Virus record (IMG/VR): IMGVR_UViG_3300024428_000358
Span: 1 to 20,806 of that record
Length of the DNA stretch: 20,806 nucleotides
Strand: one strand, 5' to 3'
From: a virus
The first letter of the stretch is position 1. Each line of letters begins with the position of its first letter. The translations under genes and the position numbers were made by a program. Positions 1,159 to 19,975 of the stretch are shown here, piece after piece. Below the pieces are notes generated by a model. The model did no database searches and was not told the origin of the DNA. It was given only the letters and a program-made list of their open reading frames with translations.

Positions 1159-2504
1159 TATTCGTTAAGTCCTTTCGTGCTCAAGGCCGTAAATCCGGCG
1201 GGAACATCATATTCAAATATTCCTATTCCTGAGGCGTTTGTTCCTGCTGATGATACTGCTGTTGTTCCAAAGTAGCCATTGCCAAAATTTGCATGCCAGA
1301 TTCCATTATCATTCCAGTGAGATACTCCAAATCCTAATACACCTTCCGCTGTTCTAGATGAAATATTATAACCATTTGAACCTGTTGTTGGATTACCAGA
1401 CATTATGTAAGTTCCATTTTTATGCCAATACAATTTAGAATTATCAATATCTACTGCTACACCTATAATATCTCCAGTTGTGTAAGTGCTTCCTGATCCT
1501 GAATTTGAACCACCATTATAAATGTCTCCAGTTGGATGCCAACCAGTACCATTACCACCAATATACATATCTGCGTCATATTTTTCTTGTGCTACTATTC
1601 CCACATAAGGATAAGAACCACCTGTTGAACCTATTTCTTGTAATTTAAATTCTGCATAAAATTTACCAGAAGGCATACCAAGAGTTGATATTGATTGTCT
1701 TTGTCCAACATCTCCTGTCATTGAAGCTACATTATTACCATTTGAATAAGTTATACCAGAAAGAGTTTGTGCTGAAGTATTAAATGTAGCAAATACATTG
1801 GCTGGACAATCCTCAGTTTTTGTAAGTGTACCACTTAAAGTAAAATTATTACTATTAGATGATTGGTCTGTAATTGTGTTTCCATCTTTTAAAATTGTAA
1901 AACCATTATTACCTAATGTAAAACTAGGAGAAGTTTTAATTGTCCATTCTCCGGTTGTTGAATCTTCTTCACCAAATGTATCTGCGTCATAACAATATCC
2001 ATCTGACATATGAACATGGCTTATAATACCATCATGGTAATAATAACCTGAACCACTACCTGCACCTATAGTAAAAGTTTTATTATTACTATTTAAGTCA
2101 TTCCAAAAAACATCTTGTGCAGGTAAATTATTTGTTGCGTAAGATATTTGTTCTCCATTTACATAAATTTTCAATCTATCCGCTTGTGTTGATTGTGTAG
2201 TATCTCCTGCAAAAACAAAATGATACCAACCATTAATATCTCTAAATGCTTGTGTAGTGCTATTATAATTACCACCTGTTCCTCCTTCAGAAGGATTATA
2301 AATAGTCATAATATTACTGCCATCATCATCTCTAAAAACACAAGCCATACCAGTACCATCATACCAACCACCTTCAGTACACCATAATCCAGTCATAACA
2401 CTTGAAACACCTTTCGGAACAGTTCTTTTAACCCACATTGATAATGTAAATTTTTTTCTATTTGTACCTGCTGTTTGTGTTCTTGTTAATTTTGTACTAG
2501 CCAT
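1158..2504 (-). CDS. LamG-like and SPRY-domain tail fibre/adhesin
   Basis: 448 residues. The N-terminal half (about 15-205) has the concanavalin A/LamG pattern: FTLSMWVKR at 19-27, a W-Y-H-F-V-F strand near 93-98, LKIYVNGE at 111-118 and a Gly/Tyr-rich calcium-lectin-like stretch. Residues about 279-412 match a SPRY domain: GKFYAEFKL, then GDIIGVAVDIDNSKLYWHKN at 344-363, then LGFGVSHWNDNG. Both are beta-sandwich binding folds, so a role in recognising host surface glycan or protein is likely. The gene is joined to both neighbours by TAATG one-base overlaps, placing it in a single leftward late transcript with the genes at 112 and 2504. Domain calls are by motif reading only. Confidence 0.85.
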   Translation of the reverse strand: MASTKLTRTQTAGTNRKKFTLSMWVKRTVPKGVSSVMTGLWCTEGGWYDGTGMACVFRDDDGSNIMTIYNPSEGGTGGNYNSTTQAFRDINGWYHFVFAGDTTQSTQADRLKIYVNGEQISYATNNLPAQDVFWNDLNSNNKTFTIGAGSGSGYYYHDGIISHVHMSDGYCYDADTFGEEDSTTGEWTIKTSPSFTLGNNGFTILKDGNTITDQSSNSNNFTLSGTLTKTEDCPANVFATFNTSAQTLSGITYSNGNNVASMTGDVGQRQSISTLGMPSGKFYAEFKLQEIGSTGGSYPYVGIVAQEKYDADMYIGGNGTGWHPTGDIYNGGSNSGSGSTYTTGDIIGVAVDIDNSKLYWHKNGTYIMSGNPTTGSNGYNISSRTAEGVLGFGVSHWNDNGIWHANFGNGYFGTTAVSSAGTNASGIGIFEYDVPAGFTALSTKGLNE

Positions 2505-3679
2505 TAGTTAAACTGAGCTCCTCCTGTTGCACCGTAAGATGTTGTAATAGAAAACGATCTATCTACTGTTTGTGATTCAGCATCCGTTATTCTTACGGTA
2601 AAATTATATGTTGTGGCTGTAGTTGAACTACCACCTAAATTTGTTGTTGTTATTGCTCCAGTGGAACTATTTAGTGAACAGTTTGCTTGTGAAGCATTTG
2701 TTAATACGTTTGTTGTTTCAGAAAATGTAATAGCACTGTCTGAACTACCAGCTAATGTTGCAACTGTTCCTGAAAATCCACCTGCAATAGAACCTAAACT
2801 GCCTGCTGAAGTTGAAAAAGTTGGAGCAGCTGATACAGATAATAAAGCTGATGAAGATAATACAGCATTACCATCTGGATTTTCTATTCTTAATTTATAA
2901 CTTGCATTAACACTTAAAGTAAATGTTGCTACAATAGTTGTTGAATTAGTAAACGCAATTGAATCGGCAGGATACCAAATACCTGTAGAAGTATTTAATG
3001 CCTCTACTTGTGGTATAGAAGTGAAATTTGTTCCTGTAATTGTAACTGCTGTTGATGTACTTGTGACAACGGCTGTAGGACTTATTGAACTTATTGTTGG
3101 TACTGTTGCAGGAGTTATTGCTGTACCACCTACTGTTAGTGTACCATCTACTTCTAAACTTGTACCATTTATTAACATTAATTTATCAGACTTCCATCTT
3201 CCTGTAATAGCATTAGAGCCTGCTTTTTTATGTGTAAATTCTAGTATGCCATCTTCGGTACCATCACTTGCATCCGAAATTTTTGCTGTAATTTTAGCAT
3301 ATATTATTTCTTGATCGGCGTCATTTTCGCCTTTGAATTTTATTTGTCCTAGATAATCTCCGTCATCAGGACTTGAGCTGTTTCTTTTTAATGTTATAAC
3401 AGGACCAGCTGAACTTGAATCTTCAGTAGTTGTTGCTAGAAAAGTATCATCTGTTGATGTATTGGTAAGTGTTAACGATGTACCTCCATCAGCAGTACCG
3501 GCAGAACCAGTATAACCAACACCTATTGAACCAGTATAACCTATAACACCTTGTGATCCTGTAAATCCACCTGTTAATGGTTGTAAAGCCCATGCCTCGC
3601 CATTCCATTTCCATGTACGTAAACCTAAATTATACGTATCATTAGTAGACGGTCCTGACGGAAAGTTTATTGTTGGCAT
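2504..3679 (-). CDS. Tail-fibre protein with short collagen-like linker, IPT/TIG and Ig-like domains
   Basis: 391 residues. Residues 1-37 form an N-terminal cap (NFPSGPSTNDTYNLG then WKWNGEAWALQPL) shared with the gene at 4777-5673. A short Gly-X-Y run follows at 38-61 (GFTGSQG, GYTGS). Residues about 65-190 are a beta-rich segment with a SDKLMLINGTSLEVDGTLTVGG signature seen in phage fibres. Residues about 193-283 read as an IPT/TIG domain (PTISSISPTAV, VTITGTNF, YKLRIENPDG). Residues 284-391 resemble a putative Ig/He_PIG repeat (SLNSSTGAI, YNFTVRITDAES). The start has an AAAAGGA Shine-Dalgarno 11 bases upstream and two tandem late promoters beyond it, so this gene opens a new transcription unit. 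The likely role is a virion fibre for host attachment. Confidence 0.85.
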   Translation of the reverse strand: MPTINFPSGPSTNDTYNLGLRTWKWNGEAWALQPLTGGFTGSQGVIGYTGSIGVGYTGSAGTADGGTSLTLTNTSTDDTFLATTTEDSSSAGPVITLKRNSSSPDDGDYLGQIKFKGENDADQEIIYAKITAKISDASDGTEDGILEFTHKKAGSNAITGRWKSDKLMLINGTSLEVDGTLTVGGTAITPATVPTISSISPTAVVTSTSTAVTITGTNFTSIPQVEALNTSTGIWYPADSIAFTNSTTIVATFTLSVNASYKLRIENPDGNAVLSSSALLSVSAAPTFSTSAGSLGSIAGGFSGTVATLAGSSDSAITFSETTNVLTNASQANCSLNSSTGAITTTNLGGSSTTATTYNFTVRITDAESQTVDRSFSITTSYGATGGAQFN

Positions 3680-3713
3680 TTAAATTCTATCCTTTTAAGT
3701 TTCTCGTTCCACA

Positions 3714-3730
3714 TATTTATAATATTTATA
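3714..3730 (-). promoter_or_regulatory. Tandem T4-type late promoters (two TATAAATA)
   Basis: Two exact TATAAATA motifs on the minus strand, at 3723-3730 and 3714-3721, nine bases apart. They lie between the terminator at 3756-3791 and the start of the fibre gene at 3679. They would drive the leftward genes 2504-3679, 1158-2504 and 112-1158. The duplication may raise output or allow two start sites. Confidence 0.75.
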
Positions 3731-3755
3731 CTGACTTTAGGACAGCTATTTTCCA

Positions 3756-3791
3756 ATAAAAAACCCCCGAAACCTAAGCTTCGGGGGTTAA
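3756..3791 (-). terminator. Rho-independent terminator
   Basis: A perfect 10-bp inverted repeat AACCCCCGAA (3762-3771) and TTCGGGGGTT (3780-3789) encloses an 8-base loop. On the minus strand the stem runs directly into six Ts (3758-3763 on the plus strand are As). It lies just 3' of the gene at 3818-4747 and ends the transcript coming from the right. Its GC-rich stem stands out from the AT-rich surroundings. A weaker T-rich tract on the plus side could make it bidirectional. Confidence 0.92.
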
Positions 3792-3817
3792 TCTTTTTCT
3801 TTGATTACTATAGATTA

Positions 3818-4747
3818 TTATGCTTTAACAATCTTTAGCGTGTGAGTTGCAGCTGTCGTTACCGAACCTGCTGGAAACTCTTGCGCTCTGTAGTCATCAC
3901 CAACTTGTCTAGTTTGGTAATTAGAACCATCAAGTATAGTGTTAGCCATACCTGAACCTCTTGTAGTACCAGAACCATTAAAGTTATATCTAATAGTATA
4001 TCCGTCTGTTGAAGCACTTGCAGTCGCTCTAATCCACTCTTGACACAAAGTATCAAAAGCTGAACCAGATTGTTGTAAGTGATTTGAGCCGTCTATATTC
4101 ATTAGACTTTCGTAAGATGACGTAGCACCATTTACTCTTTGTAAATAGTAACTAGTAATCGTAGTTGGGTTATCCAATGAGTGGTCACCAATTGATCCAG
4201 CAGCATAAGCGCCAGTGTTGGCTCTTGTGTCTACGAATATTGGTGTGTTTGCACCACTAACTTCAGTAGCACCACTAACAGACGCTGAAGATGATATAAA
4301 ATATGTACCACCTTGTTGCGTTGTAGTTGTACTCGCTGTAAGTAAGTCAATAGCAGGATGTAAGAACGTGTCCTTAATATCTGCTAAAGGCATAGCATGA
4401 ACTTCACCACCACTTGTGTAGTATACCGGCCATGTTGTACCTGTGTCAGCTGTCGGTGTAACCGAAGCAACTGTCTGACTAACTTTGTCATAGTTTGTCG
4501 TTACAGTTTGAGGGTTCTGTGTTGTACCTGATCCTGGAAAAGAAGATGAACTGTTAGAAACAGTACCTGCTTTTAATCTAGTATCAGAAATTGCTCCTAA
4601 AGAGCCACTTGAACCTACTACTGATAACGTAACTGACGGCGATAGAGAATATTGATAAACAATATTATCTACCACTGCGTCAACCTGAGCTGAAGTCATT
4701 TCAATAAGATCACTACCGTTGTATATTAGCGGGTTTCTTGTTGCCAT
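3818..4747 (-). CDS. Virion structural protein (marine T4-like phage type)
   Basis: 309 residues, rich in Ser, Thr, Gly and Ala, no membrane segments. It starts MATRNPLIYNGSDLIEMTSAQ and continues VYQYSLSPSVTLSV, a start I recall from virion structural proteins of T4-like cyanophages and pelagiphages. The C-terminal part (RVNGATSSYESLMN, WIRATASASTDGYTIRYN) is predicted beta-rich. A clear AAGGAG Shine-Dalgarno lies nine bases before the ATG. The gene follows the collagen-like fibre after 29 bases and ends at a strong terminator, so it closes that transcription unit. The precise virion role is unknown. Confidence 0.8.
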   Translation of the reverse strand: MATRNPLIYNGSDLIEMTSAQVDAVVDNIVYQYSLSPSVTLSVVGSSGSLGAISDTRLKAGTVSNSSSSFPGSGTTQNPQTVTTNYDKVSQTVASVTPTADTGTTWPVYYTSGGEVHAMPLADIKDTFLHPAIDLLTASTTTTQQGGTYFISSSASVSGATEVSGANTPIFVDTRANTGAYAAGSIGDHSLDNPTTITSYYLQRVNGATSSYESLMNIDGSNHLQQSGSAFDTLCQEWIRATASASTDGYTIRYNFNGSGTTRGSGMANTILDGSNYQTRQVGDDYRAQEFPAGSVTTAATHTLKIVKA

Positions 4748-4776
4748 TATTTATTTCTCCTTATTTGCTCTGCTTA

Positions 4777-5673
4777 CTATGAAGCGTTACCTATGATTGT
4801 TTTTAATGTAGTACCTGAACTATTTTTGATTAGTAAAGTTACAGCTGAGCTGAAGTTACTTGAATCAACAGTGTCTACTTGGTCACCTTTTGATCCTGTA
4901 AATCCAACAACACCTTGGTTAGAAAGCTCTACCCATTGTACTGAATTACCGTCATTGTAGTAAAAGTATTGAACACCAGTTGCGTTATCTACCCAGATAT
5001 CGCCTTCGCCTACGCCTGAAGTTGGCGGAGAAGCTGATGTTGTAATATCAAGATTACCTTCAGATCCAGTGTAACCAATGTCACCTTTTGATCCTGTGAA
5101 ACCTGTATCACCTTTTGATCCTGTGAACCCTTTAGATCCTGTGAAACCAATGTCCCCTTTAGATCCAGTGTAACCAATGTCACCTTTTGATCCTGTGAAA
5201 CCTTTTGATCCAGTGAAACCAATATCACCTTTAGATCCTGTGAAACCAATATCACCTTTTGAACCAGTGAAACCAGTGTCCCCTTTAGAACCTGTGAAAC
5301 CAATTGTACCTGAAAGGTCAGATACGAATGAGTATGCTGAACCGTTCCATAGGTATAATCTAGAGTTTTCTGAGTCTGTTAATGACCCATTTTCAATGAT
5401 AGCAAATTCACCAGTAGCTATGCCTGATGGACTTGTATCCGCTGATAAGTTAGCGACACTAGTATATGTCTTCGCAATGTTGAAGCCTAAACCAGTATCC
5501 CCTTTAGAACCTGTATACCCGATATCACCTTTAGAACCAGTATAACCGATTGATCCAGTGAAACCTGCTGTAAGAGGCTGTAGTGCCCAACCGTTACCGT
5601 TCCATTTCCACTGTCTTGTACCGAGAGTGTATATGTCGTTTAACGAGGGACTATTTGGAAAGTTAATTGCCAT
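4777..5673 (-). CDS. Collagen-like tail-fibre protein
   Basis: 298 residues. The N-terminal cap (1-36, NFPNSPSLNDIYTLG then WKWNGNGWALQPL) is paralogous to that of the gene at 2504-3679. A first Gly-X-Y run covers about 37-63. Residues about 64-124 are an inserted globular segment (SPSGIATGEFAIIENGS, SRLYLWNGSAYSF). A second Gly-X-Y run at 125-208 has 28 uninterrupted triplets built from GFTGSKGD[IT]. The C-terminal segment (ITTSASPPTSG then WVDNATGVQYFYYNDGNS) is shared with the gene at 5829-7349. Collagen-like runs form trimeric rod segments in phage fibres, so this is probably a trimeric fibre. An AGGAG Shine-Dalgarno lies nine bases before the ATG, and a late promoter lies about 100 bases upstream. 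Confidence 0.9.
   Translation of the reverse strand: MAINFPNSPSLNDIYTLGTRQWKWNGNGWALQPLTAGFTGSIGYTGSKGDIGYTGSKGDTGLGFNIAKTYTSVANLSADTSPSGIATGEFAIIENGSLTDSENSRLYLWNGSAYSFVSDLSGTIGFTGSKGDTGFTGSKGDIGFTGSKGDIGFTGSKGFTGSKGDIGYTGSKGDIGFTGSKGFTGSKGDTGFTGSKGDIGYTGSEGNLDITTSASPPTSGVGEGDIWVDNATGVQYFYYNDGNSVQWVELSNQGVVGFTGSKGDQVDTVDSSNFSSAVTLLIKNSSGTTLKTIIGNAS
5050..5301 (-). repeat. Collagen-like coding repeat, 28 Gly-X-Y triplets
   Basis: In-frame 27-bp and 18-bp units encode GFTGSKGDI, GFTGSKGDT and GFTGSK. The unit sequences are nearly identical at DNA level, so slippage or unequal recombination could change rod length. Shadow open frames in other frames here come from the repeat and are not genes. 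Confidence 0.9.
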
Positions 5674-5828
5674 TTTGTTTGTCTCCTAATTTATTATTGT
5701 TTTTTTTAATTAAAAAATTCAATTTCGTCAATAGTATAATTCTTGCAAGAAAAGTATTTCGTTTCTTTTCTACATCTATTTATAATATAATTCTTCTTCA
5801 AATCTGTTAATAATACAATAGTTTTTAA
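5674..5828. other. AT-rich intergenic leader between fibre genes
   Basis: 155 bases without a gene. It contains the late promoter at 5777-5784 and a leader of about 100 bases before the Shine-Dalgarno of the gene starting at 5673. A 7-bp AT-only inverted repeat (ATAGTTT 5818-5824 with AAACTAT 5831-5837) overlaps the stop codon of the upstream gene. It is too weak to call a terminator. No small open frame with a ribosome site was seen. Confidence 0.6.
5777..5784 (-). promoter_or_regulatory. T4-type late promoter (TATAAATA)
   Basis: An exact TATAAATA on the minus strand in the gap between two fibre genes, reading towards the gene that starts at 5673. Its position in a non-coding gap, and the recurrence of the same motif before other minus-strand genes, support a real promoter rather than an AT-rich coincidence. 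Confidence 0.7.
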
Positions 5829-7349
5829 TTAAACTATAGTAATTGTTCCTACCATAGAACCATGCGATGAACATTGATAGTACAATGTCGCAGGAGCACT
5901 CATAGGAACATGAAATATAACTACACCTGTTGATCCCGAGGCGTTATTATCAGTAACACCTGTATTATATACTGTTCCACCTGTACCTGTAGTAGATTGT
6001 ATTCTAAATGGATGTCCACTAGTTGTATTTCTAAAGTAATATGTTTGACCTTTTTTAAGGTAGATAGTAGGATTATCGCCACTTGTACTAGGGAATCCTG
6101 CACCATCAAATCTGTATGCACTTGAACCATTGGCTGTTACAACAAATTGTGAAATTGGAGTTTGTGTTTGTACCCAACCTGAACCATCATAAACTAAAGT
6201 ATGGCCTTTTTGTGGTGTACTAATAGTTACGTCTGTAAGAGCAGATAATGTGCTAGCACCAGATGAACCTGTAAATCCTACAACACCTTGGTTACTTAAT
6301 TCTACCCATTGATTACTGTTACCATCGTTCATGTAGAAGTATTGAATACCTGTTGCGTCATCAATCCAAACGTCACCAATACCTGCTGAACCTGGAGGAG
6401 TTGAAGCAACTGCTACATCTAAATTTCCCTCTGAACCTGTATAACCTATTACACCTTGATCACCTTTTGATCCTGAAAAACCTATTGAACCTGTATAACC
6501 AATTATACCTTGATCGCCTTTTGATCCTGAAAAACCTACTGTACCTTGATCACCTTTTGATCCTGAATATCCTATATCTCCTTTTGAACCTGAAAAACCT
6601 ACAGCACCATCTGAACCATCAGCACCTGCTGTACCGGTATCTCCTTTTGATCCTGAAAAACCTACAGCGCCGGCTGAACCTGCGTCACCTTTTGATCCTG
6701 AATATCCTAAATCTCCTTTTGAACCTGAAAATCCTACAGCACCTGCTGTTCCTGTATCTCCTTTTGATCCTGAAAAACCTATAGTACCTTGATCACCTTT
6801 TGATCCTGAAAAACCTACAGTACCTTGATCACCTTTTGAACCTGAAAAACCTACAGCACCTGCTGTTCCTGTATCTCCTTTTGATCCTGAAAAACCTACA
6901 GTACCTTGATCACCTTTTGATCCTGAATATCCTATAGCGCCTGCTGATCCTGTAAAACCTACAGCACCTGCTGATCCTGTAAAACCTATAGCGCCGGCTG
7001 ATCCTGTATAACCTGATCCACCACCAACACTGAATAATGACCAGTTGGCGTCGGCATTTGGCACTGCACCTGTAACGCTACTACGTACTTCACTACCTTG
7101 AAGTTTGTAAGTATAATATTTGTCTGCTGTGTATGTAGTTGAACCTGAAGTATATCCATTTTTAACATATACTAACATACCCTCTGTTATTCTTGCACCT
7201 GGAATATCTGTTAATCTATCTCCACTATCACCAGAAATACTTTGAAGTGTACCTCTAACTTCCGTATCTATAACGATAGGCGAGTTAGTGCCGGTACTCC
7301 ATGTTCCTGGCCAGACGTTTCGTGTTAGACCATCGTAATTTGTAGCCAT
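5829..7349 (-). CDS. Collagen-like tail fibre with C-terminal cupredoxin-like domain
   Basis: 506 residues. Residues 1-112 are an N-terminal attachment-type domain (YDGLTRNVWPGTWSTG, GARITEGMLVYVKNGYTSGS). Residues 113-310 are 66 Gly-X-Y triplets (GFSGSKGDQ, GFTGSAGA). Residues 311-365 repeat the WIDDATGIQYFYMNDGNS segment of the gene at 4777-5673. Residues about 402-506 look like a cupredoxin: a beta sandwich with GHPFRI (H446) and, near the end, YYQCSSHGSMVGTI with C493, H496 and M499. His plus Cys-x2-His-x2-Met is the arrangement of a type 1 copper site with a short amicyanin-like loop. Copper binding is inferred and the domain may be only structural. An AGGAG Shine-Dalgarno lies six bases from the ATG; one base separates it from the upstream gene's stop. 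Confidence 0.88.
   Translation of the reverse strand: MATNYDGLTRNVWPGTWSTGTNSPIVIDTEVRGTLQSISGDSGDRLTDIPGARITEGMLVYVKNGYTSGSTTYTADKYYTYKLQGSEVRSSVTGAVPNADANWSLFSVGGGSGYTGSAGAIGFTGSAGAVGFTGSAGAIGYSGSKGDQGTVGFSGSKGDTGTAGAVGFSGSKGDQGTVGFSGSKGDQGTIGFSGSKGDTGTAGAVGFSGSKGDLGYSGSKGDAGSAGAVGFSGSKGDTGTAGADGSDGAVGFSGSKGDIGYSGSKGDQGTVGFSGSKGDQGIIGYTGSIGFSGSKGDQGVIGYTGSEGNLDVAVASTPPGSAGIGDVWIDDATGIQYFYMNDGNSNQWVELSNQGVVGFTGSSGASTLSALTDVTISTPQKGHTLVYDGSGWVQTQTPISQFVVTANGSSAYRFDGAGFPSTSGDNPTIYLKKGQTYYFRNTTSGHPFRIQSTTGTGGTVYNTGVTDNNASGSTGVVIFHVPMSAPATLYYQCSSHGSMVGTITIV
6420..7013 (-). repeat. Collagen-like coding repeat, 66 Gly-X-Y triplets
   Basis: Repeated 9-residue units such as GFSGSKGDQ and GFSGSKGDT, interleaved with GTAGAV and ADGSDGAV units. 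Many units share near-identical DNA with each other and with the repeat at 8587-9267. The antisense Leu-rich open frame over it is a by-product of the repeat. Confidence 0.9.
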
Positions 7350-7350
7350 A

Positions 7351-9315
7351 CTATGCTCCTATCTCCACGTAAGTTGTTCCTGGTTGTAAAGTAAATCCAT
7401 ATAAATGATAACTTTCTCCTGTTTGTCCTGACAATGGTGAATCAGGTACTAGTGTAATTGTTCCACCATCTGTTGTACTAACATCACTTAATAATCCTGC
7501 ACTTGCACCTGTTTTAAATGTACCAGGTTGAGACGCTGAATTTTTAACAGCAAACCAAAATGCTCTAGGATTTGAATCTGAATTATTAACTGATTGTACT
7601 GAAAATGTTCTTGTTTGATCTGCCAACTGATTAACTGCCGATTCAAAACCTGTAGATGTTGAATCATCTATTATATCGGCAACTGCTGGAGGTGTTCCTA
7701 CTCCTGTTGTCCAGATCCAGAAAGACGGATACGTAAATGAGGCAGATACGTTGCTTGTTGTTGACGACTGATCTGTCGTATATGAGGTGCCTGTTACATC
7801 AACAGGTCTTGTGAACGTACACGTATTTGAGACAGTACGTGTATCGCTTGTATTGTCTTTGTGTATAGGTGATGTAAATGTAAATGTCCCACTCACATAT
7901 CCGCTTCCTGAATTTGTACTCAAAGTACCACCACTTGCTGTTAAAGCATGTGAAGTGTTACTTGAATTTGATATACCACTTGTGTTAGTAGAGTACGATG
8001 TACTAGCATAAGATTTTAAAAATGTTTTTCCGCTAACATTATTTTTAGATAAACTCATAGACGCTGTTGACCAATTTACAGAAAAACTTGTATTTGATTC
8101 TGTATATTCTGATTCACTGCCGTCATTATGATTAAATTTAATTGTTGCACCAGCCGAACCTCCAGTACGACTAGTTGATATTGGTCTAATATATGAGTTT
8201 GTATTGTCTACAGTAAAAGTTTGATTCCAATCTACACCACCTGCTGGTGTTTGTGATTTACTTCCTGCTGAATAATTACTTAAAGTACCGTTAACACTTC
8301 CACTTGTTTGAGTGATAGAGTAAACTGAACTTATATAATCGTTTGTAACGTCACTAGGATTATCTACAGATACAGAAAATCCTGTTGCTGGTACATCCCA
8401 ATTATTAGTACTTGAAGGATTACCTGAAGCTGAAAATGAAGGAGTAAAAGTTGCTAAAGTTAATCTTAAAAGATCACCTGAAAATTCTGCTGTTCTAACT
8501 GTACTTGTTACACCACTTTCTTTATAACCTGTAAGTGTTCTATAATCTCCTGAAGTTGTAAATACAAAAGGAGAATCTCCTCCTCCTGATCCTGCTGATC
8601 CTGTAAAACCTACGGCACCTACTGAACCAGTATAACCACCACCTGGTCCTTGAGGACCTGTGGCACCTGCTGAACCAGTGTAACCTACACCGATTGATCC
8701 TGTAAAACCTACGGCGCCATCTGAACCATCAGCACCTGCTGTTCCTGTATCTCCTTTTGATCCTGAATAACCTATTACGCCTTGATCACCTTTTGATCCT
8801 GAAAAACCTACGGCGCCAGCTGAGCCTGCGTCACCTTTTGATCCTGAAAAACCTGTTACACCTTGTATACCTTGTGAACCTGTATCTCCTTTTGATCCTG
8901 AAAAACCTGTGGCGCCAGTTGAACCTGCGTCACCTTTTGATCCTGTGTATCCTGCTCCGGTAGAACCAGTAAAACCAACAGCACCATCTGATCCGTCTGA
9001 ACCATCAGCACCTTTTGATCCTGTGTAACCTACTCCTGTTGAACCAGTGAAACCAACTGTACCAGATGAACCTGTGTACCCTAAACCTCCTGAGGATCCT
9101 GTAAAACCTACAGCACCTACTGAACCAGTGTAACCACCACCTGGTCCTTGAGCACCAACTGATCCTGTGAAACCTTGTGAACCTGAATAACCACCTGGTG
9201 ACCCAGCGGCTCCGTCAGCCCCTTTGGAACCTGTAAAACCTGTTGGACCTCCTGATCCTGTGTAACCTATACGTCCTAGGCCGACACGAACACCGGCGTT
9301 CTTAATTACTGGCAT
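7351..9315 (-). CDS. Large collagen-like tail-fibre protein
   Basis: 654 residues. A short N-terminal cap (MPVIKNAGVRVGLGRI) leads straight into a collagen-like rod at 17-243 made of GYTGS, GFTGS and GFSGSKGD units. Residues about 247-654 are a long Ser/Thr/Asn-rich beta domain (SPFVFTTSGDYRTLTGYKES, FSVSVDNPSDVTNDYISS, WFAVKNSASQPGTF) ending YGFTLQPGTTYVEIGA. I recall similar long domains in cyanophage fibres, but no enzymatic motif is visible. It is the first gene of the leftward fibre block. A GAGGGAG Shine-Dalgarno-like sequence lies about 15 bases upstream of the ATG and a late promoter lies at 9384-9391. Role: virion fibre, probably trimeric. Confidence 0.88.
   Translation of the reverse strand: MPVIKNAGVRVGLGRIGYTGSGGPTGFTGSKGADGAAGSPGGYSGSQGFTGSVGAQGPGGGYTGSVGAVGFTGSSGGLGYTGSSGTVGFTGSTGVGYTGSKGADGSDGSDGAVGFTGSTGAGYTGSKGDAGSTGATGFSGSKGDTGSQGIQGVTGFSGSKGDAGSAGAVGFSGSKGDQGVIGYSGSKGDTGTAGADGSDGAVGFTGSIGVGYTGSAGATGPQGPGGGYTGSVGAVGFTGSAGSGGGDSPFVFTTSGDYRTLTGYKESGVTSTVRTAEFSGDLLRLTLATFTPSFSASGNPSSTNNWDVPATGFSVSVDNPSDVTNDYISSVYSITQTSGSVNGTLSNYSAGSKSQTPAGGVDWNQTFTVDNTNSYIRPISTSRTGGSAGATIKFNHNDGSESEYTESNTSFSVNWSTASMSLSKNNVSGKTFLKSYASTSYSTNTSGISNSSNTSHALTASGGTLSTNSGSGYVSGTFTFTSPIHKDNTSDTRTVSNTCTFTRPVDVTGTSYTTDQSSTTSNVSASFTYPSFWIWTTGVGTPPAVADIIDDSTSTGFESAVNQLADQTRTFSVQSVNNSDSNPRAFWFAVKNSASQPGTFKTGASAGLLSDVSTTDGGTITLVPDSPLSGQTGESYHLYGFTLQPGTTYVEIGA
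8587..9267 (-). repeat. Collagen-like coding repeat
   Basis: Gly-X-Y repeat encoding residues 17-243 of the fibre. Units are more varied than in the other two fibres, with GPGGGYTGSVGAVGFTGS occurring twice and KGADGSDGSDGAVGFTGS-type units. It shares DNA-level units with 6420-7013. Confidence 0.88.
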
Positions 9316-13208: not shown

Positions 13209-13237
13209 TTGCCATTTTAGATAAAATATTGTATACT
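13209..13237 (+). promoter_or_regulatory. Sigma70-like promoter of the riboswitch-btuB unit
   Basis: TTGCCA at 13209-13214, a 17-base spacer, and TATACT at 13232-13237: each hexamer has one mismatch from consensus. The expected start near 13244 is about nine bases before the riboswitch's closing helix at 13253, so the whole aptamer would be the 5' end of the mRNA. Confidence 0.78.
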
Positions 13238-13252: not shown

Positions 13253-13356
13253 ATGGCCTAAAAGCGTAGTGGGAAAGTGACGTGAAATTCGTTCAGATTA
13301 CTTGATACGGTTATACTCCGAATGCCACCTAGGCCATACAACGAGCAAGGAGACTC
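13253..13356 (+). promoter_or_regulatory. Hydroxocobalamin riboswitch (env8-like, class II cobalamin)
   Basis: An RNA leader that senses cobalamin and controls translation of the receptor gene. An 8-bp closing helix pairs ATGGCCTA (13253-13260) with TAGGCCAT (13330-13337). Inside are the cobalamin-family core elements: GTGGGAA at 13269-13275, a GTGAAATTC loop region at 13282-13290 closed by GACG/CGTT, a CGG/CCG hairpin at 13308-13320, and GCCACC at 13324-13329. Downstream, GAG (13343-13345) pairs with CTC (13354-13356) to present AAGGAG (13347-13352), the Shine-Dalgarno, in a loop; CTCC at 13316-13319 is complementary to it. From memory the element matches the structurally solved env8 HyCbl riboswitch at nearly every base. 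In that family, ligand binding locks an L5-L13 kissing loop that hides the ribosome site, so cobalamin would repress translation. Confidence 0.95.
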
Positions 13357-13359
13357 AAC

Positions 13360-14967
13360 ATGATAAGATTAATTCTTATATTAATCTTGGTATGGGCTAA
13401 TGTTGCCTATTCCAAAGAAGACGATTGTAAATGGGATGATGATATTCCTTGTCTTACAATATATCCAAACATAAACAACTCAAACGCATTAGGTGATAAG
13501 ATAACACCTACACGTACAATTAAAAAATCTGAAATTGAAAAGTATAATCTAATTGATTTACCTAAAGTATTAAACTATGTTCAAGGTTTAGACATAACTC
13601 AATCAGGTCCTACAGGTCAACAATCATCGGTGTTTTTAAGAGGCACTAATTCTAATCACACATTAGTATTATTAAATGGAATACCAATCAATGACTACTC
13701 TACACCTACAGGCGCCCACGATGTTGGTCAAGACTTTATGTTTAATGTTGTACAAATAGATGTATACAAAGGGTCACAAGGTGCTCATTGGGGAGCAGAC
13801 GCTGTTGGTGGTGCAATTAATTTTAGAACAACTGTAGATTATGATAAAAAATTAAGTATTGGTGGTAACGGTAATGATAAAACTATTAGTGGTAATTACT
13901 ATACTAGATTAAATGACTTTGATATATCTGTTTCAGCTGGCGAACATAAGTCACAAAACGTTTCTGCTTTATCAGGCGCTGACGAAAAAGATGGAACAAA
14001 TAATAAAACAATAGGTGTTAATGTAAGTAAATGGTACGATCTTGTACATTGGCGAACATCTTGGTTTGCAAGAAACACTTTCTCTGATATAGATGGTCAT
14101 AGTGTTTCTATACAAGACGGTAAATGGGCAGATAATACTTTCTTTGCCTTACAAACAGGTATTGATTATTTAAATAACAGTTTAACTTTTCATACACACG
14201 AATATGATAGAGACTATGACGACTCTCATTATGAAAGTGAAAACTATACAGTAAGAGGAACACATCAAAAAGAAAAATATGGTTTTGGCTTTGATTACAA
14301 ACATAATGAATCTTTAGCAAGTCAACATCATAATCTAGGATACTTCTTTAATTTTTCACATAATATATTTTCATATCATCATAGGTTTGATGAAGAACAT
14401 GAAACATATAAATTAGGTTTCTTTAAAGAGATAGAAGATGGTTTAAGTATAAGTGGTAGTACATCAACAAGTTATAAAGATAAGACAACATGGACTGCTA
14501 TTGAATATGGAGAATCACAAGAGTTAACATTAACTAAAAATAATTTTGCAACAACTATATTTAAAAATGATATTGGTGATTTAAATACTGACGGTATAGA
14601 GTTTAGTTATAATCAAGAAAATTCTAAATTTTTTATTAGTCATTTAAATAGTAAAAAGATTGATGTAGTACAATTAAGAAGACCTAATTGGTCTCTTGGT
14701 TTTATGCATACAAAAGAATTAGAAAATAACTTTTCTATAACTACTAATTACAAATATAAAGGCAGACATTTAGATGTACATAATTCTAATTGGTCAACTA
14801 TAACAATGCCTGAAACACATTTGTTAGATTTAAATCTTGGATATAATTATTACGGTATAGACTTTGGTGTTAGTTTGTTAAATTTGTTTGATGAAAATTA
14901 TGAATCACCTCATGGGTTTAGTCAAGAAGGAAGAAAGTTTACTTTAGGATTTAATAAATCTTTTTAA
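13360..14967 (+). CDS. btuB: BtuB-like TonB-dependent outer-membrane cobalamin receptor
   Basis: 535 residues, against about 614 in E. coli BtuB. Residues 1-18 are a signal peptide (MIRLILILILVWANVAYS). The plug at about 45-160 follows BtuB closely: LPKVLNYVQGLDITQSG, SSVFLRGTNSNHTLVLLNG, then VYKGSQGAHWGADAVGGAIN. The rest is a beta barrel rich in alternating aromatic strands. The C-terminus (LLNLFDENYESPHGF, GRKFTLGFNKSF) matches the BtuB C-terminal barrel and ends in Phe, as needed for outer-membrane insertion. The segment before the plug has C23 and C31 and a divergent TonB box (CLTIYPN where BtuB has a TLVVTAN-like box). The start is fixed by AAGGAG seven bases upstream inside the riboswitch hairpin. 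The stop overlaps the convergent radical SAM gene by four bases. Base composition resembles its neighbours. Function: cobalamin uptake into the periplasm; receptor decoy is an alternative. Confidence 0.93.
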   Translation: MIRLILILILVWANVAYSKEDDCKWDDDIPCLTIYPNINNSNALGDKITPTRTIKKSEIEKYNLIDLPKVLNYVQGLDITQSGPTGQQSSVFLRGTNSNHTLVLLNGIPINDYSTPTGAHDVGQDFMFNVVQIDVYKGSQGAHWGADAVGGAINFRTTVDYDKKLSIGGNGNDKTISGNYYTRLNDFDISVSAGEHKSQNVSALSGADEKDGTNNKTIGVNVSKWYDLVHWRTSWFARNTFSDIDGHSVSIQDGKWADNTFFALQTGIDYLNNSLTFHTHEYDRDYDDSHYESENYTVRGTHQKEKYGFGFDYKHNESLASQHHNLGYFFNFSHNIFSYHHRFDEEHETYKLGFFKEIEDGLSISGSTSTSYKDKTTWTAIEYGESQELTLTKNNFATTIFKNDIGDLNTDGIEFSYNQENSKFFISHLNSKKIDVVQLRRPNWSLGFMHTKELENNFSITTNYKYKGRHLDVHNSNWSTITMPETHLLDLNLGYNYYGIDFGVSLLNLFDENYESPHGFSQEGRKFTLGFNKSF

Positions 14968-16265
14968 CTTTGAACGTGTAATTGAGAAGATTTTTTCTTT
15001 CTAGGGTGATCAATTCCTATAGACTTTCTGTTTTCATTTAGTTTATCGGATTTATATCTTTCTATTTTATCAATACAATGTTGTTGAAACCGATAACCTA
15101 ATTGATTACCTAATTCATAAACTTTTATGAATCTTTGAAATCTTATATCAAAGTCAGAGTTTTGATTTTTCCATTTGAAGCCAAATTCTCCACCAAACAA
15201 TTCTCTATGTTCAAAGTCTAAAGGTGTATTTTCAAAGGTCATCATAACGTGGTGAGATATACTAATTAAATGTGAATACTTTGCATAGTCTCTTAATAGT
15301 TGCATAGTATCCTCAAACATTTCTTCCGTTTCCGTAGGATATCCTACAATCAGTAAGAACTTCATATTAATTTTTCTTTCTCCTAGATTAGTAACAAAGT
15401 ATTTTATATCATCATTAGTAAACTTTTTTTTCATATGATTTCTAACACTTTCATTACCTGATTCTATACCCATTTCTAAACCATTGCAACCAGAGTTTGC
15501 CAAATTATCAAAATCTTCTTGCGAAAAAGTCTTTTCAGCTCTAACAATAAACTGTCCTTCCCATTTTACTTTTTTCTTTTTTATAGATAATTCGTAAACC
15601 ATATCCCTAAAATGTTTCATTGAACCATTAACCAATGAATCAGAAAATGCTATCTTTTCAGATTTAGTATGTTCAGCAACACTATGTATTTCATCAGCAA
15701 TTTTCTTACCTGATTTCCATCTAAATTTTGGCCAGATACTTGCGACATCACAGAAAGTACAATTTCTAACACAACCTCTAGAACCAGATATTATAAATCT
15801 TCCATATTTGTGTTCCTTTATTACGTCTGAATAATCTGGTGGTGGCAAATCTTCTATGTTTTCTATCTGTTTTGGTGGTCTTCCGTTAATACCAGGATAA
15901 TCAAAATTTCCTTTTAGAAATTCTTGTACAGCATATTCTCCTTCTCCTACTATAAAATTTTTAGAAGGCCATTTTATATCAACACCTGATCCTCCGTAAA
16001 AAGCATTATCATATTTTTCTCCTAATTTTAAACCATCTTCTTTTTGCATAAAAGAAAATACAGATATACCTAACCATCTAAATTTATATTTTGCAATTTC
16101 TTTGTGTATATTTTCTAAAGTATCTAATTGATTACCATCTATAACTTTAATTTTAAATCCTAATGGTTCTAAATATCCTTTTAAAAAAGAAGGACCAGGT
16201 GCAGGTTTACCTTTGTCCATTCCTGGCAGTGATGTAATAACGGCGTCATATAATATATTATCCAT
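14964..16265 (-). CDS. Radical SAM protein with B12-binding-like N-terminal domain
   Basis: 433 residues from the ATG at 16265. That start overlaps the upstream stop as TAATG; a longer frame from 16313 would intrude 49 bases into the upstream gene and is less likely. Residues about 1-120 resemble the Rossmann cobalamin-binding region of class B (B12-dependent) radical SAM enzymes: PGPSFLKGYLEPLGFKIKVI, WLGISVFSFM and FIVGEGEYAVQEFLKG. The classic DxHxxG cobalamin-ligand motif is absent, as in many class B enzymes. The [4Fe-4S] cluster motif is C165-x3-C169-x2-C172 in GSRGCVRNCTFCDVAS. Later EMGIESGNESVRNHM and FLLIVGYPTET are typical of this superfamily. The reaction is unknown; methylation or another radical modification of a glycan or small molecule is possible. 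Last gene of a leftward three-gene operon. Confidence 0.85.
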   Translation of the reverse strand: MDNILYDAVITSLPGMDKGKPAPGPSFLKGYLEPLGFKIKVIDGNQLDTLENIHKEIAKYKFRWLGISVFSFMQKEDGLKLGEKYDNAFYGGSGVDIKWPSKNFIVGEGEYAVQEFLKGNFDYPGINGRPPKQIENIEDLPPPDYSDVIKEHKYGRFIISGSRGCVRNCTFCDVASIWPKFRWKSGKKIADEIHSVAEHTKSEKIAFSDSLVNGSMKHFRDMVYELSIKKKKVKWEGQFIVRAEKTFSQEDFDNLANSGCNGLEMGIESGNESVRNHMKKKFTNDDIKYFVTNLGERKINMKFLLIVGYPTETEEMFEDTMQLLRDYAKYSHLISISHHVMMTFENTPLDFEHRELFGGEFGFKWKNQNSDFDIRFQRFIKVYELGNQLGYRFQQHCIDKIERYKSDKLNENRKSIGIDHPRKKKSSQLHVQS

Positions 16266-16720
16266 TAATAAGGTAGTCCTCCGACAATATGAGTACGATC
16301 TTCTTTTGAACAATTTAATGCTGTATGTTTTTTTCTAGTGTCTATTACATACGCCTCTCCTGTGGCTGGTATGTGTATTCTATCATTATCTAGTAATAAG
16401 AAACAGTGTTCATTTGTTACTATTGGTATATGCAATCTTTGTGTCAAGTCATTATGCCATAGATAACATGCTTTAGGTTTCATTCTCATTAATCTTGTTC
16501 TAGTAAGTTTATGTTCTTTCATTATACTATTGATATAAGGTATATCAAATAAAGGAACAGTATATGTGTGTTCTACTTTATCTACGTCATAACCTTTACC
16601 AGCTCCTTCTTCAGGATCCATGTCTTTAGAATAACCTTGTAGATATAATTGTTTATTATAATCTGGTAAAGTTTCTAACTCTTTTTTAATCTTTTCTAAA
16701 TCGTACTGGTAAGTCTTCAT
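16265..16720 (-). CDS. Aspartyl/asparaginyl beta-hydroxylase-like 2OG-Fe(II) oxygenase
   Basis: 151 residues. The C-terminal two thirds carry the 2-oxoglutarate/iron pattern of the Asp/Asn beta-hydroxylase fold: H89-x-D91 in YLWHNDLTQRLHIPI, then GEAYVIDTRKKHTALN with H132 as the distal iron ligand, then EDRTHIVGGL with R142 as the likely 2-oxoglutarate contact. The protein is close to single-domain size, with no membrane segment, so it is probably a cytoplasmic hydroxylase. The substrate is unknown; proteins, amino acids or small molecules are all possible. Its ATG overlaps the small upstream gene as ATGA and its stop overlaps the radical SAM start as TAATG, so the three genes are translationally coupled. 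Confidence 0.75.
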   Translation of the reverse strand: MKTYQYDLEKIKKELETLPDYNKQLYLQGYSKDMDPEEGAGKGYDVDKVEHTYTVPLFDIPYINSIMKEHKLTRTRLMRMKPKACYLWHNDLTQRLHIPIVTNEHCFLLLDNDRIHIPATGEAYVIDTRKKHTALNCSKEDRTHIVGGLPY

Positions 16721-16887
16721 AAACTCATTCTCTTTTTAGATAATCTTAACTTATCTTTCATTTTTAGTTTTAATTTTTTTAATGTACGTAAATCTGTCCA
16801 ACTTCTTGAACCACGTCTAGTTTCTCTTTTTACTTCAGCTTCTTTAACTTGTTTTTTTAGGTCTTTGTGTTTTTGTTTTATAGTCAT
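16717..16887 (-). CDS. Small basic YdcH/DUF465-like protein
   Basis: 56 residues, highly basic: MTIKQKHKDLKKQVKEAEVK, then RETRRGSRSW, then LRTLKKLKLKMKDKLRLSKK. The pattern of a heptad helix followed by LKKxKLxxKDxL resembles the YdcH/DUF465 family of small helical hairpin proteins, whose function is not established. A GGAGG Shine-Dalgarno lies four bases before the ATG, and the stop overlaps the next start as ATGA, supporting a real gene. It is the first gene of the leftward operon, 21 bases downstream of a late promoter. Nucleic-acid or membrane-surface binding is possible from charge, but unproven. Confidence 0.72.
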   Translation of the reverse strand: MTIKQKHKDLKKQVKEAEVKRETRRGSRSWTDLRTLKKLKLKMKDKLRLSKKRMSL

Positions 16888-16908
16888 ATAGCCTCCATGT
16901 TATATAAC

Positions 16909-16916
16909 TATTTATA
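16909..16916 (-). promoter_or_regulatory. T4-type late promoter (TATAAATA)
   Basis: An exact TATAAATA on the minus strand in the divergent gap, 21 bases before the ATG at 16887. It would drive the YdcH-like, oxygenase and radical SAM genes. A plus-strand GATAAATA at 16922-16929 lies beside it and might add late transcription rightwards. Confidence 0.65.
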
Positions 16917-16938
16917 AGACGGATAAATATGCATAACA

Positions 16939-16967
16939 TTGACAAATTAATCAAAAAATGTTATAAT
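16939..16967 (+). promoter_or_regulatory. Consensus sigma70 promoter of the glycan cluster
   Basis: TTGACA at 16939-16944, exactly 17 bases, then TATAAT at 16962-16967: a full match to the bacterial housekeeping consensus. Only five bases separate the -10 from the ATG at 16973, so the predicted start is on or next to the start codon and there is no Shine-Dalgarno. The mRNA is probably leaderless at its first gene. Confidence 0.8.
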
Positions 16968-16972
16968 AATAT

Positions 16973-17839
16973 ATGAATAGATTAAATGTAATAGTGACTT
17001 CTAAACCAGGCGATGGTTTAATGCATTATAGTTTTGAACAAGTACAATATCTAAACGATTTAGGTATTAATGCAAAACTTATAATCATACCTCACTACAA
17101 ATTTACCAAAGAAACTTATATAGAGGCCTTAACAGAAAAGTATATACATATGAAAAATGTATACTTTGATTATGAAGAAGCTGATGTAAATTTAATTATG
17201 GGTAGAAGTATGTTAACTTTAGCATATAAGAGTATCAAAGATTATGATAAAGATACACAATTGACTTTACGTTTGTTATTTAAGAAACCTCTCATATCAG
17301 TATATTCAGAAAACCACCCTAAAGAATATCCTTTAGCACTAGAATTTTTTAAACCAGAAAGAGTAATTGACTTATGCGACCACGAGGTATATGTTAATGG
17401 TATAGGTAGACAATTTGAAAAGATTATTAACTACAGTGTATATAAACCTATAGTCAGAGACGTTAAGTTTAAGTATCTATTTTTAGGTACAAACGAAAGT
17501 TATTATACTGAACTAAAAAAACATATTCACAAATACCAAAATCATGGTATCTTGGCATACAAAGATAAGTACATAGACCATAATTTAAATCATGTATTTG
17601 TGCCTGTAAAAAATTTATTAGGTATGTTTGATACTTACGTTTATACTAAACACACATTTGATCCGGCACCAAGATTAATGCAAGAGTGTCGTTTCTTTGG
17701 AATGAATTTTATATATGCAAGAGATAAAAATATTAAAGACGCAGGACCTGTTTATTATAAAAGACCGGCATACTGTTTAACGGACCCGACAAATAAAAGT
17801 AATATAAATACACTTGTAGAAGCTATAAATCAATTATAA
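16973..17839 (+). CDS. GT-B glycosyltransferase-like protein
   Basis: 288 residues. The N-terminus (NRLNVIVTSKPGDGLMHYSF, QVQYLNDLGINAKLIIIP) looks like the first Rossmann half of a GT-B enzyme. A second half begins near KFKYLFLGTNESYYTEL, and HTFDPAPRLMQECRFFGMNF (about 226-245) resembles the donor-side E-rich segment of GT-B transferases. Exact family not recognised. It opens the rightward cluster and has no ribosome site before its ATG, the promoter being immediately upstream. Its stop overlaps the radical SAM start as TAATG. The co-transcribed aminotransferase and SGNH-like genes support a role in surface glycan synthesis. Confidence 0.65.
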   Translation: MNRLNVIVTSKPGDGLMHYSFEQVQYLNDLGINAKLIIIPHYKFTKETYIEALTEKYIHMKNVYFDYEEADVNLIMGRSMLTLAYKSIKDYDKDTQLTLRLLFKKPLISVYSENHPKEYPLALEFFKPERVIDLCDHEVYVNGIGRQFEKIINYSVYKPIVRDVKFKYLFLGTNESYYTELKKHIHKYQNHGILAYKDKYIDHNLNHVFVPVKNLLGMFDTYVYTKHTFDPAPRLMQECRFFGMNFIYARDKNIKDAGPVYYKRPAYCLTDPTNKSNINTLVEAINQL

Positions 17840-18522
17840 TGTCATATTTTAAAAAAAGATTACACGCACTGAATTTGGATTTATCTCATAGATGTCCTTT
17901 AGAATGTCCTAATTGTCAAAGACAAACAGCCTTTACAAAAAGAGGTTTGATACCACATGGACGTGATCTAACGTTGCATGAAATGGATATTATAACAGAT
18001 CATTTTAAATCAGTTGGCTTTTGTGGACAATTATCGGATCCTGTACATCACCCTAGATTTAATGAAATACTAGAACTATTTAATAAAAAAAATGTTGGAG
18101 TTATGGTTCACAGCGCAGCCACAGCTAAACCTATATCATGGTTTATTAAATCATTTAAAGCATATCCAAATGCAAGGTGGGTATTTGCCTGTGACGGCTT
18201 ACCAAAAGATAGTCATAAGTATAGAAAAAATCAAGACGGAGAAAAGATGTTTGAGATAATGAAAATAGCAAAACAACATTTAAATACCACACCACAATGG
18301 CAATACATAATATTTAACTACAATGAAGATAATATAGAACAAGCTAAAAAAATGGCTTCAGACAATGGAATTGAATTTATATTAGTACAATCTTCCAGAT
18401 GGAGAGACGAAAATGGAAAACCAGATCCTTTAAAACCAAGAGGTTCTTCCGGAATTAAAACACTATTAACAAAACAAACTGAAAAAGATAGACAAGGAAA
18501 TTATGAATGGCAAAAGAAATAG
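17839..18522 (+). CDS. Radical SAM enzyme, N-terminal (core) part of a split radical SAM/SPASM protein
   Basis: 227 residues. The [4Fe-4S]-SAM motif is C19-x3-C23-x2-C26 in LSHRCPLECPNCQRQ, near the N-terminus as in SPASM-type radical SAM proteins. Later segments (GFCGQLSDPVHHPRF, RWVFACDGLPKDSHKYRKNQ) fit the partial TIM barrel. It stops at 18520-18522, 16 bases after the start of the next frame, which holds the matching C-terminal Fe-S domain in the -1 frame. An A-AAG-AAA heptamer at 18513-18519, just before the stop, is a plausible bacterial -1 slippery site. Product: either half of a two-subunit enzyme or a fusion made by frameshifting. Substrate unknown; the neighbours suggest glycan or peptide modification. 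Confidence 0.8.
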   Translation: MSYFKKRLHALNLDLSHRCPLECPNCQRQTAFTKRGLIPHGRDLTLHEMDIITDHFKSVGFCGQLSDPVHHPRFNEILELFNKKNVGVMVHSAATAKPISWFIKSFKAYPNARWVFACDGLPKDSHKYRKNQDGEKMFEIMKIAKQHLNTTPQWQYIIFNYNEDNIEQAKKMASDNGIEFILVQSSRWRDENGKPDPLKPRGSSGIKTLLTKQTEKDRQGNYEWQKK

Positions 18523-18923
18523 TTAAATTAAGTCCTCTTTGTTTACCGGATCCAAAAGGTAAAAGGCCAGGTAGAAATGGTCAAAAACATGTTATGCCTA
18601 TGGCAGTTAATAATAGAGGTTATTTACTACCATGTTGTTGGTGTGATGAAAAAAATATAACAGCTTCAAAACAATTTAAACCTTTGTATGACGTAAGTAA
18701 ACTTGAAGACTATAATAATATAAATGAAATACTTGAAACAAAAGAATGGGTTGAGTTTGAAAATGATTTAATTAATGCTAGAGATATAGGAGATGAAGAC
18801 AGTTTAAAAAAAGTACAACCAGTTTGTATACATCACTGTAAAGTAAGAAAAGAAGAAGATAAAATGAAAATAGAAACTCACTTTTCAGCTGAGGGTAAAA
18901 AAGTAGTAGAGGAAATAAAATAA
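18507..18923 (+). CDS. SPASM-like C-terminal iron-sulfur domain of the split radical SAM protein
   Basis: 138 residues, no radical SAM motif of its own. The cysteines look like an auxiliary-cluster (SPASM-like) domain: C12, then G38-x4-C43 in NRGYLLPCCWCDEKN with C44 and C46, then C107 and C111 in VCIHHCKV. Such domains normally follow the radical SAM core in one chain. Here the frame is -1 to the upstream gene and overlaps it by 16 bases. An AAGGAA Shine-Dalgarno seven bases before the ATG would allow independent initiation. Both parts lack further stops, so the break is recent, a sequence error, programmed, or stably split. Its stop overlaps the aminotransferase start as TAATG. Confidence 0.72.
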   Translation: MAKEIVKLSPLCLPDPKGKRPGRNGQKHVMPMAVNNRGYLLPCCWCDEKNITASKQFKPLYDVSKLEDYNNINEILETKEWVEFENDLINARDIGDEDSLKKVQPVCIHHCKVRKEEDKMKIETHFSAEGKKVVEEIK

Positions 18924-19975
18924 TGGATTCATGGAATAAAGAATATGCACTAAACAAAGAAGAATATCTTAAACTTTTTGATGAGTGTATGCAAGAAAAA
19001 CAAGAACAGAATATAGAGTTTCTAGAAAAAACAATTACAGATACAATAGGAAAAAAATACGCTGTTGCTTGTCAAAACGGAACAGACGCTTTAATGTTTT
19101 CTTTAAAATGTTTAGATATAAAACCAGGCGATGAAGTATTAACAACCAACTTTTCGTGGATATCAACAGCGTCTTGTATATCTATGGTAGGTGCAACTCC
19201 TGTATTTTGCGATATAGATAAAGAAACTTATCATATATCACTTGACAGTATCAAACGTATGTATTCAGACAAAGTAAAAGCAATTGTCTATCCACATTTA
19301 TTTGGTAATATGTCAGACATAACAGAGATATTAAAATTTTGTAAAGAAAAAAACATATCATTTATAGAAGACGCAGCTCAGGCCATAGGTTCTAGTCTTA
19401 ACGGTGTTAAAGCGGGTACTCTAGGAGAATTAAGTACAATAAGTTTTAATGCGAACAAAACGATAGGTGGAATCGCCGGAGGTGGTGTGGTATTAACAGA
19501 TAACAAAGACTACGCTGATATGTGTATCAAGTTAAGAAAACATGGTAACCATGAGATACTAGGATACAACTCTAAAATGTTATTCTTTAATGCAAAGTTT
19601 ATTGATTATAGATTAAAGAAACTAGATCAGTATGTTGAGGCTAAACAAATAGTAGCAAAAAAATATGATGAACAATTAAAAGATGACATAATTACGCAAT
19701 CAACCTCAAATGGTGTTAATCATACGTATCATAAATATATTGTAAGATTTGAAGACAAAGAAACAAGAAACAGAGTTAAAAAAAGATTAAATGCCAATGT
19801 ACACTATGAAAAACCTATATCTGAACGCCCTATGTATAAAAACATATCACATAGAAGCGATGATTGTATTAATTGTAAACATATCAGTGATACAATTTTA
19901 ACATTACCAATTGATCCTTTTTTAACAGATGAAGAAATAAATAACACATGTAATACAATATTAGCCTCACTATGA
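18923..19975 (+). CDS. DegT/DnrJ/EryC1/StrS-type PLP sugar aminotransferase
   Basis: 350 residues, close to family length. The fold and active site of nucleotide-sugar aminotransferases are clear: CQNGTDALMFSLKCL (phosphate-binding N-terminal loop), DEVLTTNFSWISTASCIS, ATPVFCDID, then EDAAQAIGSS with D150 and Q153, and SFNANKTIGG with the PLP Schiff-base lysine K179. It would transfer an amino group to a keto-sugar nucleotide, making an amino sugar for surface polysaccharide. The AGGG-like GGGG motif follows K179 as GGIAGGG. It is coupled to both neighbours (TAATG upstream, ATGA downstream). The specific sugar cannot be deduced. Confidence 0.92.
   Translation: MDSWNKEYALNKEEYLKLFDECMQEKQEQNIEFLEKTITDTIGKKYAVACQNGTDALMFSLKCLDIKPGDEVLTTNFSWISTASCISMVGATPVFCDIDKETYHISLDSIKRMYSDKVKAIVYPHLFGNMSDITEILKFCKEKNISFIEDAAQAIGSSLNGVKAGTLGELSTISFNANKTIGGIAGGGVVLTDNKDYADMCIKLRKHGNHEILGYNSKMLFFNAKFIDYRLKKLDQYVEAKQIVAKKYDEQLKDDIITQSTSNGVNHTYHKYIVRFEDKETRNRVKKRLNANVHYEKPISERPMYKNISHRSDDCINCKHISDTILTLPIDPFLTDEEINNTCNTILASL

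Follow-up and report, generated by a model that had tools for sequence, protein, structure and literature searches.

It is likely that the window (the whole stretch of DNA analysed, a linear IMG/VR virus record of 20,806 bases) carries a phage gene for a BtuB-like receptor led by a compact env8-type class II cobalamin riboswitch, that cobalamin represses translation of this receptor, and that uptake of vitamin B12 is thereby gated, with radical SAM enzymes as its likeliest users. A host-type sigma-70 promoter would transcribe the receptor gene. Under cobalamin scarcity, L13 and the Shine-Dalgarno sequence within it would be free and the receptor would be translated; when cobalamin is bound to the aptamer, L5 would kiss L13, the ribosome site would be closed and translation would stop. 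Only infected cells short of B12 would thus gain additional uptake capacity from the phage, and the extra B12 would most likely be used by B12-dependent radical SAM enzymes of the phage or the host, not by ribonucleotide reductase (RNR).

Aptamer, expression platform and kissing loop

A sigma-70-like promoter was located at 13209-13237 on the plus strand, with a -35 box TTGCCA (13209-13214), a 17-nt spacer and a -10 box TATACT (13232-13237); the same spacing and TTGACA/TATAAT-like boxes recur in other phage leaders (L038, L047, L049, L020). The covariance-model scan proposed in the initial annotation was run over the whole window with cmscan, and the Rfam family RF01689 (AdoCbl-II) matched 13255-13335 on the plus strand at 73.5 bits (E=6.7e-17; gathering cut-off 36.5 bits), complete from model position 1 to 81 and with no insertion or deletion. 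It is the sole match above the gathering score in the window, and it was reproduced by a second search. On this match and on the covariation described below, 13255-13335 is a class II cobalamin riboswitch aptamer, and the claim that the leader holds the elements of that class was borne out. Matches to rdlD and IS1222_FSE elsewhere in the window were below threshold and were judged to be chance; the weak rdlD match (3758-3805, minus strand) covers a GC-rich hairpin with a run of T behind it, most likely an intrinsic terminator.

The remainder of the interval first noticed, 13336-13356, is the expression platform. It contains the P13/L13 hairpin GAG-CAAGGAGA-CTC (13343-13356, plus strand), in which P13 is formed by GAG 13343-13345 and CTC 13354-13356 and L13 includes CAAG 13346-13349. 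The Shine-Dalgarno sequence AAGGAG (13347-13352, plus strand) sits within the L13 loop CAAGGAGA, 7 nt before the ATG at 13360, just as the initial annotation had described a hairpin that carries it, and its position inside L13 is common to all compact leaders. Plain RNA folding of the leader was no better than that of shuffles (z=-0.77), as expected for an RNA stabilised by a ligand and a pseudoknot, and was therefore not counted as evidence.

Thirty distinct leaders from phages and SAR11 were aligned. In the aptamer helices, standard pairs make up 95.8% of the pair cells versus 76.5% in shuffles; two-sided changes occur in 15 of the 22 aptamer pairs, a count reached by none of 500 shuffles, and neither shuffles nor slid registers approach the real alignment in paired cells or covariation score. 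P1 and P13 of the compact phage leader also carry compensated changes, among them AAG/CTT in P13 of L049. The L5 kissing loop (13300-13304, plus strand) offers CTTG at 13301-13304 to the CAAG of L13, which in compact leaders overlaps the Shine-Dalgarno sequence. L5 and L13 are complementary in all 30 leaders parsed by script, and L032, which fell outside the script's parse, gives the same reading by eye. Four compensating types of L5/L13 were found. Compact phage leaders have CTTG/CAAG and some longer phage leaders CCAG/CTGG; of the SAR11 leaders, most have CCTG/CAGG and one has CCCG/CGGG. Each L13 suits its own L5 alone, with no fit across types. This kissing loop, as read from the aligned leaders, is the strongest mechanistic evidence in the analysis. 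Because the loops are complementary with compensating types and L13 contains the Shine-Dalgarno sequence, repression of translation by bound cobalamin is the best-supported mechanism. In the E. coli btuB riboswitch, cobalamin likewise represses through an L5-L13 kissing loop, with an aptamer of a different subclass.

The env8HyCbl riboswitch (PDB 4FRN, 4FRG) resembles the window's leader in its Rfam class and in having the Shine-Dalgarno sequence in a P13 loop that kisses L5 near the start codon. Seven of its residues are named in the literature (A9, G12, U13, G19, A20, A68 and U69; PMC12138973, PMC11838749). All seven fit the window when G13255 is numbered 1; the likeness to env8 that the initial annotation had put forward holds at these positions, and the match at nearly every base that it named would agree with them. 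The published RNA would have C39, and the window, with T39, would then differ from it by one base; two other phage loci (L006, L019) have C at this position. The leader is apparently the same RNA as the crystallised env8HyCbl, as judged from the seven published residues. In E. coli, env8 with cobalamin represses translation through this kissing loop (PMC11838749, PMC10907184, PMC10653944), by cobalamin-dependent occlusion of the Shine-Dalgarno site (PMC11838749, PMC10907184); the env8 kissing loop contains a mismatch and a bulge (PMC10653944). By analogy, the window's RNA may act by the same occlusion, and its ligand may be of the hydroxocobalamin or methylcobalamin type. The natural context of env8 is not given in the literature examined, whereas that of the window's leader is a phage gene for a predicted B12 receptor.

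The receptor gene in phages and SAR11

The gene downstream of the leader (13360-14967, plus strand), which the initial annotation had left without a name, encodes a BtuB-like TonB-dependent outer-membrane receptor of 535 aa with a signal peptide, a plug (Pfam Plug, E=1.4e-18) and a 22-strand barrel. Its best solved relatives by sequence are structures of E. coli BtuB (2e-23). An AlphaFold2 model (pLDDT 86, pTM 0.85) has 22 barrel strands, and the top 12 PDB fold matches of the model are all BtuB, with TM scores up to 0.85. The phage protein shares the TonB-dependent B12 receptor fold of E. coli BtuB but is shorter and only about 19-20% identical to it over the fold alignment. Among NCBIfam models, those of B12 receptors score best yet far under their cut-offs (TIGR01779, 97.6 versus 599.7; NF007926, 91.8 versus 836), and the receptor is therefore named BtuB-like, another corrinoid or another substrate being possible. 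Sequence and model together suggest that it transports B12.

Upstream, on the minus strand, is a phage gene (12845-13186) that matches phrog_1084 and phrog_3304 (L-shaped tail fiber protein assembly) and is a conserved neighbour of the receptor gene across many loci. The other virion-type genes of the window are mostly tail-fibre proteins (112-9315, minus strand), with long collagen-like GFTGSKGD repeats at 4777-9315 on the minus strand. On the other side, adjoining the receptor gene, 14964-19975 contains genes for a radical SAM protein, an Asp/Asn hydroxylase, a SPASM-like protein and a DegT aminotransferase, a cluster suggestive of surface-sugar or peptide modification.

Close relatives of the receptor are encoded at 27 loci in viral contigs. 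When 2.9 million viral contigs were scanned with a pattern of the aptamer core, 32 stretches were found, two of them by chance and the rest in 30 other viral contigs with the compact leader, each time before a receptor gene. Large contigs of 172 kb and 115 kb are among them; their receptors share only 42% and 27% identity, respectively, with that of the window. In a sister contig of the window (G009), the receptor gene occurs together with a T4-like gp23 that is 87% identical to that of Pelagibacter phage Mosig and 75% identical to that of Methylophilales phage Melnitz. No gp23 was found in the two largest contigs, so their phage type rests on their relatives. The marine-phage context that the initial annotation suggested is upheld by these contigs, and the carriers are probably marine T4-like (pelagimyophage-type) phages. 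Among the annotated phages of INPHARED, there was no DNA match to the locus, and protein matches were limited to short plug matches in bacterial or unannotated records. Other structured leader RNAs are known from marine T4-like phages, namely the glutamine riboswitch of Melnitz and Mosig and the manA and wcaG motifs of cyanophages (PMC9004378, PMC2864571), but they differ in ligand and gene, and none reported there controls a vitamin transporter.

The best cellular matches to the receptor alignment in the genome collection were 18 loci of Pelagibacteraceae (SAR11). AdoCbl-II is present in 15 of these 18 genomes, the extracted leaders lying just upstream of the receptor gene, and it scores above its cut-off in 47 of 397 sampled genomes of the SAR11 order. 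SAR11 btuB loci thus resemble the phage locus in that a riboswitch of this class immediately precedes a homologous receptor gene, the nearest cellular one, but the SAR11 receptors are only about 32-38% identical to that of the window. In the SAR11 leaders the expression platform is longer, L13 lies a long way upstream of the Shine-Dalgarno sequence, and residue 68 is G in most of them (A68 in the window). Neither the 397 SAR11-order genomes, which gave short, weak matches only, nor 385 genomes of the same class, searched without a positive control, yielded the compact env8 form. In a quick tree supported by SH-aLRT only, phage and SAR11 receptors stand apart from those of other bacteria, save for one sequence from a Flavobacteriaceae MAG, and the SAR11 receptors form one branch. 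The exceptional sequence comes from an 8.5-kb contig (L190), possibly a mis-binned phage contig. The SAR11 btuB leaders (L252-L266) have a long conserved stretch from the aptamer to the Shine-Dalgarno sequence (AGTCCGCTGTTGAATGAAGGCCAGGAAAAGTCTAGTTCTACAATG...), which is a different expression platform, and the loci are adjoined by B12-type radical SAM genes.

Exchange, gain or loss of the leader

Loci L047 and L117 have a common promoter and are 92-99% identical in the DNA of the mature receptor, whereas their leaders are 34% and their signal-peptide regions 54% identical; conversely, L047 and the window are 99% identical in the leader and 95% in the signal-peptide region versus 77-89% in the rest. 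In this comparison (L047 3276-3442; L117 upstream of 1317; window 13255-13422), promoter and mature receptor are unchanged around the module. The riboswitch is absent and the promoter kept in L017, L018, L117, L118, L120 and L122-L127, where the transcript would start almost at the ATG and be leaderless or nearly so. The identity pattern and the riboswitch-free promoters lead to the conclusion that riboswitch and signal-peptide codons behave as a swappable module, gained or lost as a unit, with either direction of change compatible with the alignments. Since many related phages have the receptor gene without a riboswitch, control by the riboswitch is not essential. In L049 and L032, the leader is 84-87% conserved versus at most about 61% for the receptor.

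Two further features were observed upstream of receptor genes. In L012, L013 and L014, promoter and riboswitch stand about 70 bases further apart, and this additional stretch includes a long hairpin (985-1062 in L012); the hairpin of L012 does not fold better than shuffles (z=-1.34) and has no Rfam match. In L145 and L150, a tRNA-like sequence, as read by eye, appears to lie directly upstream of the receptor gene.

Probable users of B12 and alternative readings

The convergent neighbour of the receptor gene (14964-16265, minus strand) encodes a radical SAM protein with a Rossmann-like N-terminal domain. Its radical SAM core is clear (PF04055, 1.7e-19), with invariant CxxxCxxC cysteines; its N-terminal match to PF02310 has E=0.068, and several relatives give 1.4e-6 to 3.4e-4, all under the cut-off. 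Fold matches include the B12-binding enzymes MgmA, TsrM and OxsB, but also AprD4 and MiaB, so that enzymes using no B12 are among them. A profile made from phage proteins alone matches the radical SAM part alone. A match of the radical SAM alignment to profiles of cobalamin enzymes was discounted, as that alignment had taken in SAR11 members and without them matched in the core only. From sequence and model, the protein is probably of the B12-binding kind. A radical SAM relative accompanies the receptor gene in several layouts. In the lineage of the window the two genes converge and abut; in G001 and L147 the radical SAM gene lies downstream, in L119 upstream, and in G002 the two diverge. In the 172-kb contig G001, the single radical SAM relative is 608 bases from the receptor gene. 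In SAR11, six of the seven genes tested beside btuB encode radical SAM proteins that also match a B12-binding domain, five of them over the cut-off. B12-dependent radical SAM enzymes of the phage or its host would be the likeliest users of the extra B12.

A B12-dependent RNR of the phage might be expected to be served instead, as phages characteristically require a supply of dNTPs and the large RNR subunit is encoded in five contigs. The phage RNR examined is class I, with an ATP-cone NrdA and an adjacent ORF of about 366 aa that reads as NrdB, as is the case in phage contigs long enough to show it, and the SAR11 enzyme is likewise class I with an adjoining small-subunit gene. Import of B12 for RNR was therefore rejected as extremely improbable. 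As for what the riboswitch senses, the family name AdoCbl-II would favour adenosylcobalamin over hydroxocobalamin or methylcobalamin, but the beta-axial pocket of env8 is lined by A20 and A68, both present in the window, and env8 binds MeCbl and CNCbl with nanomolar affinity; adenosylcobalamin is a distinctly unlikely ligand.

The receptor might instead serve mainly to alter the cell surface, by receptor replacement or superinfection exclusion, with the riboswitch as a relic of its bacterial origin. Phages often use TonB-dependent proteins as receptors, the gene adjoins tail-fibre and glycosyltransferase genes, and many phage copies are without the riboswitch. Against this, the compensated changes in P1 and P13 indicate that the compact leader itself is under selection in phages. 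In L049 and L032 its conservation exceeds that of the receptor, in L047 it has been transferred to a different receptor copy, and an exclusion factor would hardly be expected to be repressed by B12; a role mainly in surface change is accordingly unlikely, and B12 uptake under riboswitch control is preferred. There is scarcely any chance that the locus is bacterial DNA mis-joined to a phage contig, as the initial annotation had considered, or that it was recently acquired from a host by accident. The window is a linear record of 20.8 kb and relatives exist in SAR11, but the same junctions are seen in many independent contigs; the lineage of the window has conserved phage flanks; 30 other viral contigs carry the compact leader; gp23 and the receptor gene share contig G009; the phage receptors branch apart from the SAR11 clade, at the 32-38% identity given for the window's; and the compact leader was not seen in the SAR11-order and same-class genomes. 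It is possible, and here proposed only tentatively, that the compact env8 riboswitch is a phage invention, a minimal switch trimmed from the longer SAR11-type btuB leader and circulating with the signal-peptide codons among marine T4-like phages, that gates B12 import in infected cells for B12-dependent radical SAM enzymes.

A crystallised model riboswitch whose natural owner was previously unknown has its probable home in marine T4-like phages, before a B12-receptor gene. A question is also raised about the hosts: SAR11 is without MetH (PMC12478193) and has a class I RNR, yet some of its lineages keep a riboswitch-led btuB, with radical SAM genes of the B12 type alongside. Literature searches found no report of a phage locus combining a cobalamin riboswitch with a receptor; within that literature, the locus would be the first case both of a cobalamin riboswitch in a phage and of a phage vitamin receptor gated by a riboswitch. 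It suggests that B12 is limiting while marine bacteria are infected.
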